Assembly (NCBI RefSeq): GCF_004214795.1
Contig: NZ_CP035928.1
Location: 682,001-746,000 of the forward strand
Length of the DNA stretch: 64,000 nt
Reading direction: 5' to 3'
Source: Malaciobacter pacificus
Lineage (GTDB): Bacteria > Campylobacterota > Campylobacteria > Campylobacterales > Arcobacteraceae
Position 1 is the stretch's first letter. The number at the start of each line of letters is the position of its first letter. The position numbers were made by a program, and so were the translations under genes. The notes under the pieces are model-generated. The model was not told where the DNA came from. It did no database searches and worked only from the letters and a program-made list of their open reading frames with translations. Below are positions 3-4,615 of this stretch, one piece after another.

Positions 3-407
3 GGTTCTTTTGCAGAAATCTGGGGCATAAGTAATAATTATTGGGAATATCATAATTTAGATAATAACAGACATTTTCCCTATTGGTTACCTTTTGCTTG
101 GGCATTAACTTTTAGCTTTTTTTACAAGTTAGAAAGAGATATTTTAAAAATCACAAATACAATTTCTTTGAAAAGTAAATTGATTTTTGTAGTTTTAGTT
201 TCAGCTATATTTCCTACATGGGGAGAAATAATTACAATTAATTTAGGGGTTTGGACTTATTATTGGGATTATCAGTTTTTTGGAGTTCCTTTATTAGCTA
301 TATTTCTTTTGGTAGTTTTTCATACATTTATATTTATTTTATTTACACTAATTTGTAAAAAATACAAAATCTCTAATCCTGTATTTAACTTTGTTTTAAC
401 TAAATAG
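3..407 (+). CDS. Integral membrane protein, 3-prime part only
   Basis: The frame is open from base 3 to a TAG at 405-407, so the gene begins before the window and 134 residues are visible. The visible part is rich in aromatic residues and has at least two membrane helices: one around LIFVVLVSAIFP and a longer one beginning FFGVPLLAIFLLVVF, followed by a short basic tail. A TTG at 168 could be read as a start, but the frame upstream encodes similar aromatic, membrane-like sequence, so an internal start is unlikely. The last 8 bases overlap the 3-prime end of the convergent GGDEF-EAL gene. I do not recognise the family. Confidence 0.6.
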   Translation, partial: GSFAEIWGISNNYWEYHNLDNNRHFPYWLPFAWALTFSFFYKLERDILKITNTISLKSKLIFVVLVSAIFPTWGEIITINLGVWTYYWDYQFFGVPLLAIFLLVVFHTFIFILFTLICKKYKISNPVFNFVLTK

Positions 408-2304
408 GTTCACTAAAGTAGTAACCTTGAAACTTTTTTATTCCAAGTGATTTTACAGTTTCATATATCTCTTTAGAACTTACATATTCAGCAATTACAT
501 CAATATCAGCCTCTTTTGCAAAATTCATTATATTTTTTGCTACTAAATAAGATAACTCATCCTTATTGATTGTACTAATAATACTGCCATCAATCTTAAT
601 TGCATCAGCATTTATTTTTGAAAGATAAATAAAATTAGAGTATCCACTTCCAAAATCATCAATATAGATTTTATAAGATAGTTTTTTTAACTCCATTATA
701 GTTTTAGTAATCTCTTCATATGATATTATTTCATCAGTCTCTACTATTTCTAAAGCGATTTTAGATGCAATATTACTAGTTTTTGCAAACTCTTTTAATA
801 TGTTTAAAATGGGTTCATTTTGTAAATCTTGTTGAGTTAAGTTAATAGAAATTTGAATATTCTCTTGGGAATTTAAAATTTTTGTTTGAATAATACTTAA
901 TAACTCTTTTGTAAGTTTAGTTGATATAAATGTGTCTTTAATTGTTGGTAAAAACTTTTCAGGAGAGTATATTTGACCATCTTTGATGATTCTAATTAAA
1001 GCTTCATAATATCTTTTTTTATCATTTTCATCCTCATTTATAATCTCTTGATAATAAACCACAACCCTTTTATCCTCAATTGCATCTTTTATATCATTTA
1101 TTGTTAAAAAGTCTTTATTTCTATGATCTTCTTTGTATATCTCAATAGAGTTTCTACCTTTATTTTTGGCATTGTAAAGTGCCATATCAGCTAGTTTAAA
1201 TGCACTTATAAAGTTTCTTTGTTTTTTAGGATTAAGGTTTACTCCTATTGATACGCTTAGGGAGATTCTCTCACTATTAGAGACTTTAAATTCCCTATTT
1301 TTTATTGCATTATGAATTTTTTCTACTAACTCTAAAGGATCAAATCTTTTCTCTTTTTTAATAAGTAAACAAAACTCCTCTCCCCCATATCTTACAAATA
1401 TATCTTTTTTTTCTCTAATCTCATTTTTAATTCTGTTTGATATTTGAACTAAAATATCATCACCAACTACATGTCCATAAGTATCATTAACTTTTTTAAA
1501 ATAATCAACATCAATTGCACAAACAATATAATCATTTAGATTGATAAACATCTCATTATCTTGAAGATAGTTTCTAGAATAAATACCTGTTAATCTATCA
1601 ATATAAGATATTTTTTTAGTTTTGTAAAACTTAAATGTTTGATACATAAGTATCACAAGTAAGATTGATATTAATACCCAAAATAGTTGTAAAAATAGTT
1701 TTACTTGTGAAATCGTAGAAGAGATTTCATCAATTTTTTTTACAGAAAAATCAATGCTTAAAATCAAAGTAATATCTTCAATCTCAATAGGTTTTAAATA
1801 TGTTAAAGAGAGTTCATTTATGTAATCATGTTTAATAACTTTTGATTTTTTAGTATAATAAGCTTCAATCCAATATTTTGAATCAATATCGAATTTTTGA
1901 TTTATCTCAGCTTTCTCTTCACCCCTTGCAGCATCTGAAATAAATCTAAATATTTCATTTTTATCAACATAAAGTATATATGCGTATTTGATATTATTAG
2001 TTTTTAAAAGTGCTACTTTTTTATCTAATAGATTAAATAGTGATTTTTCATTTTTATTTATTTTTTGTTCATTAAGTAATAAATCTAAATCTTCTTTATT
2101 ATCTAATACAATTTTTTTTATTTCATTGGCTGTATTATTTGTTATTTCAAATACATCATTTGTAGAGATCTCTAAGATTTTTGATTCAATATTTTTTTCT
2201 ATATAAATAGTTGAAAAATAAGCCATTAATATTATTATAAAAATAGCAAGAAGTGAACTAAAGTATAGATTAAATCGGCTTTTTAATACAGGTTTTAAAA
2301 TCAT
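400..2304 (-). CDS. Membrane GGDEF-EAL protein (cyclic-di-GMP synthesis/breakdown)
   Basis: 634 residues. An N-terminal membrane helix (about 14-34), a periplasmic sensor segment (about 35-200) and a second helix (about 203-222) precede a GGDEF domain with the intact signature GGEEF at about 307-311 and the metal-binding segment DVDYF. The EAL domain follows, with EALIR at about 434, the NLTQ asparagine, the ETDE glutamate, the DDFGSG pair, IKIDG, AEYV and QGYYF. Both catalytic sites therefore look complete. The inhibitory RxxD site before GGEEF is not canonical (ExxD here), which by family knowledge would weaken product inhibition. The start overlaps the stop of the small secreted protein gene by one base (TAATG), so it is the last gene of the receptor operon. 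The periplasmic segment probably senses the upstream partners; the direction of the activity is unknown. Confidence 0.93.
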   Translation of the reverse strand: MILKPVLKSRFNLYFSSLLAIFIIILMAYFSTIYIEKNIESKILEISTNDVFEITNNTANEIKKIVLDNKEDLDLLLNEQKINKNEKSLFNLLDKKVALLKTNNIKYAYILYVDKNEIFRFISDAARGEEKAEINQKFDIDSKYWIEAYYTKKSKVIKHDYINELSLTYLKPIEIEDITLILSIDFSVKKIDEISSTISQVKLFLQLFWVLISILLVILMYQTFKFYKTKKISYIDRLTGIYSRNYLQDNEMFINLNDYIVCAIDVDYFKKVNDTYGHVVGDDILVQISNRIKNEIREKKDIFVRYGGEEFCLLIKKEKRFDPLELVEKIHNAIKNREFKVSNSERISLSVSIGVNLNPKKQRNFISAFKLADMALYNAKNKGRNSIEIYKEDHRNKDFLTINDIKDAIEDKRVVVYYQEIINEDENDKKRYYEALIRIIKDGQIYSPEKFLPTIKDTFISTKLTKELLSIIQTKILNSQENIQISINLTQQDLQNEPILNILKEFAKTSNIASKIALEIVETDEIISYEEITKTIMELKKLSYKIYIDDFGSGYSNFIYLSKINADAIKIDGSIISTINKDELSYLVAKNIMNFAKEADIDVIAEYVSSKEIYETVKSLGIKKFQGYYFSEPI

Positions 2305-2747
2305 TATTTATCCACAAATCTTTTATAATCACTAGGAATTATCAAATTGTATTTTCTTGCTCTACTTGAAGATATTTTTATATTTGGTCTACTTTTAAAC
2401 CAAAAAAAAGCGCCTAAAATATCACTACTTTTTTTATATGTTTTTTTATTGTCCGTAAAAAAGAATTTCCTTTTATTTTTACATTTATTTATATCAAAAT
2501 CTTTTTTTATATAAATAAAATCTGCATCTTCACAATTTGAAGAAAGCTTTGAATATATTGAAAAAAAACTATTTAATTGTTCATTAGAACCAATTATATA
2601 AATCTTTGGATCAAATACAAATGCTTCTGCAATCTGACTTACAATCTTTGCTTCAAGTTCGATGATATTCGATGAGTTTTGAGGTAAATAGATGTTTTTT
2701 GACACTAAAGGCATTAAAAATAGAAGATTAAAAAAAAGAATTCTCAT
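2304..2747 (-). CDS. Small secreted protein between receptor and GGDEF-EAL protein
   Basis: 147 residues beginning with a hydrophobic signal peptide (MRILFFNLLFLMPLVS). The mature part has two cysteines that could pair (in NCEDADF and NKCKNK) and a conserved-looking C-terminal segment around ILGAFFWFKSRPNI and IIPSDYKRFVDK. I do not recognise the family with certainty. Its start directly follows the receptor stop (TAAATG) and its stop overlaps the start of the GGDEF-EAL gene, so the three genes are translationally coupled. The arrangement recalls periplasmic regulators of membrane diguanylate cyclases such as YfiR, but that comparison rests on context and not on a motif I can point to. Confidence 0.75.
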   Translation of the reverse strand: MRILFFNLLFLMPLVSKNIYLPQNSSNIIELEAKIVSQIAEAFVFDPKIYIIGSNEQLNSFFSIYSKLSSNCEDADFIYIKKDFDINKCKNKRKFFFTDNKKTYKKSSDILGAFFWFKSRPNIKISSSRARKYNLIIPSDYKRFVDK

Positions 2748-4615
2748 TTAAAATACCCACTTTAAGCTAGCTGTATAGCTTCTATTACTATTTGACATAG
2801 TTTTAAAAGAGTTATTTGCATAATCAACAAAAACTACATCCATATCATCATCTAGTAAATTATTTGCTTTAAAATCAATTTGTAGGTTTTTATCTAAATT
2901 ATAAGCTAAACCAAATGACAAATTAAAACTATCATCTATTTTTAGTTTGTCATTATATTTATATTTTTGTTTATAAATAAGCTGTTCATAAAAATTAAAA
3001 TCACCAAATTTTTGATAAGCTTTTATTGAACCACCCATTTTAGGGCTACCATATTTTTCAATTGAGTTAATATATCCATAGTAATTAAAATGGATTTTAT
3101 TAAATTTATTAAAATACCTTTCATAATTTAGTGAAAAGCCAGTTGCATTAAAATCTTTTTCATTGTAGTTAATATAGCCAATTTCATTAGAATCAAAAAC
3201 AATCATATCTTTAATCTCTAAATAGTTTAAAAAAAGTGATAGATTTTGTATTTCATCTTCATACTCTATTTCAAATGTAGCAATATTTTTATTTTCATTT
3301 TTTAGATCTTTTTTTGCTTACTTGCAAAATCAATTTCAAACATTGAAGGTGGAGTAAAAGTATTTGTTAAAAATAGTTTTAAACTATAGTTTTCATTTAG
3401 TGCTGATATATATCCAAGTCTTGATGTTAGAAAATCAAAGTTTTTAAAGCCATTATCTTTAATATATTTATCATATTTTAAATTAGCAATTAATATATTT
3501 GAGTCATTAAGTTTATAAGAGTGTTCACTTAGTATTGAGTAGATAGTTTCACTTTTGAGGTTTGAATATTTAACATCACTTTTTGTAGTATTATCAAAGT
3601 AAGTTATATCTCTTCTATTTATATCATACTCTTTGTGTTTTATTGCTCCACCTAAGTATAAAGAGTAGTTTTTAAAATCAAAAATATTTGTAAGCCCAAA
3701 GTCATATTTTCTAAATGTCAAATCTTCATCTAGCTCTTTTGGTAAATTAAAAGTATTAAAATCAACCTCAGAGGCTAGTAAAATTCCCTCTTGATTTATC
3801 TCAGTTGAGTTTTTTTCAGTTTGATTAAAACTAAAATAGACCTTTCCTAAGTCCTCATTAAAAGCCTTTGAAAACTCTAAAAAATATTGATCATATTCAC
3901 TTTTTGAATAATCAGGTTCTAAATCATATGCAAGTCCAAGATAGTTTTCCTTTTGCACTTTTGTAAAACCAGAACTAAGTTTATACTCATCTTTTTTTAA
4001 AGATAAGTGAGCATATTTATTTACATTTGAGTGGCTTAACATAAATAAAAGTGAAGTATCATCAATATCATTTCCATAAACAGCAGTAGTTGAGTTTGAA
4101 TTTTGTCTTGAAATAGAACTTCTTAATATACCACCTGAAACAGTATATGCTCTTTTTGTATGTAACTTTATAGTAAGTTTTGCAGGTTCATTACCTAAAT
4201 GTAAGGTACTTTCTCCATAATATATTTCAATATGACTTATATGTTCCATTGGATAATTGGCATATAAAAGCCAAGGTGATAGAGTTTGAACTGAGCTTAA
4301 CTCTTGATCATCTATATATAATCTCATAGATGTACTTATACTATTTGGATTTCCTGCGTAAGTTAGATTTGAAGCTCCAAAAAAGTTTGTTTGCATAGAG
4401 ACTTTTGGCAATATTTTTAATATATCTTTTAGTGTCTTAACACCCATCATTTCTAAATCTTCTTGGGTAAATGATACAACATGTCCTAAAGACTCTTTTT
4501 TTGTTTTATTTGCTATTTGTTTAGAAGTTTCATATTTAAATTCATCAAGTAGAGTTTGTAAATCTTGGGCAGAGAGTATTTTTAACAAAAGAAAAAATAC
4601 CAAAATTAAACGCAT
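2748..4615 (-). pseudogene. TonB-dependent receptor-like barrel, split by a -1 frameshift at an A7 run
   Basis: Two frames together give one receptor. The first runs from 4615 to a stop at 3302 (signal peptide, plug domain at about residues 45-155, start of the barrel). The second continues from 3308 to 2748 and ends in the aromatic strand ASLKWVF typical of outer-membrane barrels. At 3316-3308 the minus strand reads CAA AAA AAG followed by ATC TAA. A shift of -1 at the heptamer A AAA AAG continues as GAT CTA AAA and gives about 622 residues. The plug is recognisable from VSFTQEDLEMMGVKTLKDIL and IEIYYGEST, but I see no clear TonB box. A one-base indel in the homopolymer, phase variation, a sequencing error and programmed slippage would all look like this. 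First gene of the operon with the secreted protein and the GGDEF-EAL gene. Confidence 0.75.

Follow-up and report, generated by a model that had tools for sequence, protein, structure and literature searches.

A frame break at an A7 tract splits a TonB-dependent receptor gene in a predicted receptor/YfiR-fold/GGDEF-EAL operon of Malaciobacter pacificus

Introduction

In dnaX-type programmed -1 ribosomal frameshifting, a slippery heptamer of the form X XXY YYZ, placed in the phase of the zero frame, is accompanied by an upstream Shine-Dalgarno motif, a downstream hairpin and conservation of the site (excerpts of PMC4066793). According to the same excerpts, frameshift-prone heptamers of E. coli that lack stimulators shift at 2.1 to 10 times a background of 0.055%. 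Transcriptional slippage on poly(A) is described for Thermus dnaX and for IS elements, at runs of nine A's (PMC1088944, in part). The GeneTack survey contains singleton frameshifts and pseudogenes, in which a shift is confined to one species, the homologs are continuous and no signal is conserved; in the text available from that survey, its authors expected sequencing errors to account for most shifts that are BLAST-validated but unclustered (PMC3711429). With respect to function, the Pseudomonas protein YfiR acts as a repressor of the diguanylate cyclase YfiN, an effect opposed by YfiB, a lipoprotein of the outer membrane (PMC2837407, in part).

The receptor gene considered here may be set beside each of these systems. 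It has the in-phase heptamer A AAA AAG in common with dnaX-type frameshifting, but not the upstream Shine-Dalgarno motif, the hairpin or the conservation of the site described in PMC4066793. It shares an A-run at the frame break with Thermus dnaX and the IS elements of PMC1088944; however, the run has seven A's rather than nine. It resembles the singletons of PMC3711429 in being a one-species shift with continuous homologs and no conserved signal, although here the operon is otherwise intact and a canonical heptamer happens to remain. As in the YfiBNR system of Pseudomonas aeruginosa, a small protein with a YfiR fold, a membrane GGDEF protein and an outer-membrane partner are found together. 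In contrast to that system as given in PMC2837407, the partner is a TonB-dependent receptor in place of the OmpA/Pal-like lipoprotein YfiB, the enzyme has an additional EAL domain, and the small protein has no Pfam YfiR sequence match.

The interrupted receptor gene

The window is a 64,000-nucleotide stretch of a complete genome of 2.66 Mb (contig NZ_CP035928.1, positions 682,001 to 746,000); together with 20 further stretches it forms a sample of 464 kb with a GC content of 28%. On the minus strand, the receptor is encoded in two frames. The first part, ORF1 (3302..4615, 437 aa ending Q-K-K-I-stop), contains a signal peptide, the Plug and approximately two-thirds of the barrel. Its Plug was identified with PF07715 (E 3.4e-6, 28 bits against a curated cut-off of 23.9). 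The last part, ORF2 (2748..3317, minus strand, 189 codons), is open in the -1 frame and matches the barrel family PF00593 with an E of 0.0012 and 19.2 bits, under the cut-off of 27.

A T7 run on the plus strand at 3309-3315 reads CAA AAA AAG ATC TAA in the zero frame of the minus strand. The heptamer A AAA AAG (3308..3314, minus strand) lies in the zero-frame phase inside this A7 run (3315-3309), and the stop codon TAA (3302..3304) follows one codon (ATC) later. The original prediction had placed the split at this heptamer and anticipated a product of about 622 residues; both points were confirmed, with a -1 shift joining 436 residues of ORF1 to 186 of ORF2. The possibility that the barrel is made from two genes was ruled out, since ORF2 is startless until codon 38 and its homologs are single genes. 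The earliest ATG, GTG or TTG of ORF2 is at 3206, 111 nt into the frame, leaving codons 1-37 with no start, and the sequence upstream of this codon already scores high for coding.

Heptamers and frameshift stimulators

The in-phase canonical heptamer and a joined product of receptor size speak for dnaX-type programmed -1 frameshifting as the means of setting the amount of receptor. The X XXY YYZ pattern is present in the correct phase (A AAA AAG, 3314-3308), while the other features of dnaX-type sites were absent. No stem-loop was found 3' of the heptamer, with fold z-scores of 0.08 and 0.01 relative to shuffled sequences in a calculation excluding pseudoknots. None of the motifs GAGG, GGAG, AGGA, GGNGG and AGGKG, a Shine-Dalgarno-like set taken from the available text of PMC4066793, occurs in the 30 nt upstream. 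The original prediction, which saw neither stimulator, was therefore correct on this point. For conservation of the site, a cluster of five or more homologs was taken as the standard, following the portion of PMC3711429 available; none of the 29 relatives inspected has the site.

The heptamer itself carries little information in this genome. Among 348 uninterrupted ORFs of the 464 kb sample, 52 contain an in-phase A AAA AAG; the neighbouring intact GGDEF-EAL gene also has one. Since 61 in-phase heptamers were counted where synonymous shuffles gave 47.9 +/- 7.5, the heptamer is not avoided. It is also readily generated by mutation. Within intact ORFs, loss of one base yields an in-phase heptamer in 95 of 298 A7 runs and 12 of 75 A8 runs; for all A-runs of at least six, the heptamer arises in 108 of 1076 cases by a one-base loss and in 71 of 1076 by a one-base gain. 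A stop codon follows within three codons in 37% of one-base losses. Textbook slippery heptamers thus arise easily by chance in an AT-rich genome, and conservation or stimulators are needed before such a site is called programmed. Because one-base losses from common kinds of A-run produce it, the canonical heptamer at the break is best regarded as a by-product. With the stimulators absent, the site unconserved and the heptamer common and undepleted in intact genes, programmed frameshifting is extremely improbable here, and an ordinary broken gene is likelier than a deliberate translation switch.

Unprogrammed slippage of RNA polymerase or the ribosome at the A7 run, in amounts sufficient to supply a functional receptor, may also be considered. 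The heptamer is in phase, ORF2 is free of decay, and in E. coli and Buchnera transcriptional insertions become steeply more frequent as A/T runs lengthen (PMC5574713, in part). However, the text available from PMC1088944 reports that many genomes show selection against slippage only at nine A/T, and the unstimulated E. coli heptamers of PMC4066793 reach at most about ten times the 0.055% background. Rescue of this kind is accordingly very improbable.

The receptor gene in relatives

Matches to ORF1 were found in 41 of 104 family genomes, its own included. The single receptors of relatives are 615-662 aa long and share 29-35% identity with ORF1. When aligned separately, ORF1 and ORF2 together match them end to end: the break falls just 3' of a conserved P-P-S...D-F motif, and ORF2 corresponds to the C-terminal third through the final K-W-V-F. 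Relatives of the receptor also occur in Aquificota MAGs.

The break site was inspected in 29 of the 40 relatives that have a match to ORF1. The frame is continuous across the site in 28 of them, and the remaining relative (L035, from genome G054) has an in-frame TAA at another position. None of the 29 carries A AAA AAG in phase close to the break; four have one elsewhere in a receptor gene that is unbroken. No A-run comparable to the A7 run was present at the site in the relatives inspected. A wider alignment scan covered 48 named loci, which overlap in genomes with the 29 relatives and include records of Arcobacter, Aliarcobacter and Sulfurospirillum. The alignment passes through the site in 43 of these loci, one of which (L111) has an in-frame TAA at a different position. 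In the other five, three leave the contig (L075, L114 and L117), one continues into unrelated DNA (L079) and one aligns poorly (L121). The Sulfurospirillum MAG L079 was considered as a second shift at the same site and rejected; it ends nearby, but the DNA beyond is unrelated.

The original prediction had named relatives with an unbroken frame and no heptamer as the observation that would count against a programmed site, and 28 of the 29 relatives are of this kind while the last is broken elsewhere. Its proposal of programmed frameshifting is thus unsupported. The two fallback options that it listed, a recent mutation and a sequencing error, are the readings that the data support best. With 28 continuous homologs, one broken elsewhere, and a break unique to this genome, we consider it probable that the receptor gene has lost its function through a change in the length of the A7 tract, either recent or segregating.

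The state of ORF2 bears on the age of the change. The conservation of ORF2 relative to ORF1 (ratio 0.93) falls within the range of the 29 relatives (0.88-1.05). Because ORF2 retains this normal relative conservation and a strong coding signal, the break would be recent. The normal conservation of ORF2 is also compatible with continued use of the gene.

Run-length errors, switching and other interrupted genes

The main rival to a loss-of-function change is that sequencing or assembly gave the run a wrong length and that the gene is whole in the living cell. Homopolymers are where such errors occur, ORF2 is conserved at the level of a working gene, and singleton shifts are mostly errors in the opinion of the survey authors, as stated in the part of PMC3711429 available. 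Against this, the sample contains 819 A/T runs at least seven bases long, and the present shift is the only one found among them with a detector that recovered 128 of 267 run losses planted as controls. This argues against an assembly generally ridden with homopolymer errors, although a single miscall is still conceivable.

The detector, a coding-score scan for split genes, flagged none of 246 intact genes and also caught 180 of 300 planted stops. Across the 464 kb, it yielded four validated interruptions, this shift and three genes with in-frame stops; being one of these four, the split of the receptor gene is beyond chance. Two of the three lie about 2 kb apart and have in-frame TAA codons: an HDOD protein (L045:8481, minus strand; G000:C1 about 941481), where profile positions 51 and 54 flank the stop, and a chemotaxis receptor (L045:6238, plus strand; G000:C1 about 939239), in which 4HB and MCPsignal parts were identified. 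The third is an outer-membrane protein with an in-frame TAG (L042:9695, plus strand; G000:C1 about 669696); all six matches in the 40 relatives searched are single open frames of 282-302 aa. Four further candidates were dropped, L042:11960 and L042:6968 as shadow frames of other genes by eye and L044:12117 and L046:12481 as apparent neighbouring genes.

Outside this unbiased sample, a second TonB receptor (L058:55-1962, minus strand; G000:C1 about 1495409) has an in-frame TAA that separates a Plug part of 351 aa from a barrel part of 283 aa. Its stop is again just after an A7 run. Two of the five plug proteins in the genome are therefore interrupted. For comparison, 150 plug matches from 61 family genomes were listed out of a larger number, and among the 147 of these from other genomes a hand count gave four with open frames under 400 aa.

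The in-frame stops in these other genes do not stem from homopolymers and weigh against an error in the run. As substitutions rather than indels, these stops are no proof on their own of the indel in the receptor gene. On balance, an error in the A7 run is unlikely.

Phase variation, in which high-frequency changes in run length would toggle the receptor on and off, was also raised by the original prediction. The gene encodes a surface receptor and homopolymer switching is usual in the related Helicobacter, although the Helicobacter search criterion given in the text available from PMC2823697 is A9 and the present tract has only seven A's. With 640 A/T runs that are exactly seven bases long in the 464 kb, an A7 tract is also unremarkable, and the relatives inspected have no comparable run at the site. 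Switching of this type is, as a result, quite improbable.

Organization of the operon

From 4615 to 400 on the minus strand, the split receptor is followed by a gene for a small secreted-type protein of 147 aa (2304..2747) and a gene for a membrane GGDEF-EAL protein of 634 aa (400..2304) with a GGEEF motif (Pfam EAL E 2e-52, GGDEF E 1e-34). The receptor stop abuts the start of the 147-aa protein, which in turn overlaps the GGDEF-EAL gene by one base. In genome G080, the 3' end of the receptor gene overlaps the next gene, making translational coupling plausible. From the abutting genes, coupling of the receptor to GGDEF-EAL expression is likewise plausible.

The 147-aa protein is conserved beside the receptor and was matched in 41 further genomes of the family. 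The structure predicted for it (pLDDT 83.5) has a YfiR-like fold over the whole mature domain, aligning with YfiR chains over 119-122 residues (Z 9.3-10.5, rmsd 3.0-3.2), with 121 residues at the top score. In the same search, certain substrate-binding proteins reach similar scores (Z 8.3-10.8), with the remaining rows at 7.8 or less. At the sequence level, the YfiR Pfam family was absent from the matches of 20 family members up to an E of 1, and no PDB sequence match to the 147-aa protein was found.

The receptor/YfiR-fold/GGDEF-EAL arrangement is conserved in relatives (L007-L035 and L070-L073) and is also seen in Sulfurospirillum; in 39 of the 48 loci, a GG[DE]EF-type motif lies somewhere on the same strand as the receptor, whether adjacent to it or not. 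By analogy, the operon appears to be a module of the YfiBNR type in which a TonB receptor takes the place of YfiB, and a predicted relay from receptor to c-di-GMP is plausible. No description of such an operon was found in the literature searched by listings, and one may well exist.

In two genomes, G001 (L070) and G019 (L071), the pair of YfiR-like and GGDEF-EAL genes is not preceded by a receptor gene, and G054 keeps both genes behind a receptor with a nonsense codon. The downstream pair therefore persists without a receptor in some genomes. Stops at differing positions in the receptor homologs L035 (G054) and L111 suggest that the receptor may have been inactivated repeatedly.

Consequences for the receptor and the operon

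If the A7 tract has undergone a loss-of-function change, the last third of the barrel would be shifted out of frame and ribosomes would halt after 437 residues. The product would be without the C-terminal strands, and a normal barrel could thus presumably not form. From the published E. coli values, slippage on the tract would give full-length receptor in trace amount at most. Both downstream genes, for the YfiR-fold and GGDEF-EAL proteins, are intact; they would probably function even with the receptor lost, though their expression may be reduced. We infer that the DNA change is genuine and has these effects on protein and expression, with a possible fall in downstream expression in the M. 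pacificus genome.

There is a slim chance that the A7 tract acts as a leaky off-state, where rare ribosomal or RNA polymerase slipping would yield trace amounts of receptor, with the early stop reducing translation of the coupled YfiR-fold and GGDEF-EAL genes. Were this the case, a one-base change in run length would reversibly tune a c-di-GMP switch gated by a TonB receptor.

Under the favored reading of a broken gene, the setting outweighs the split itself. The operon would couple outer-membrane sensing to c-di-GMP, and its receptor appears to have been lost in several lineages.
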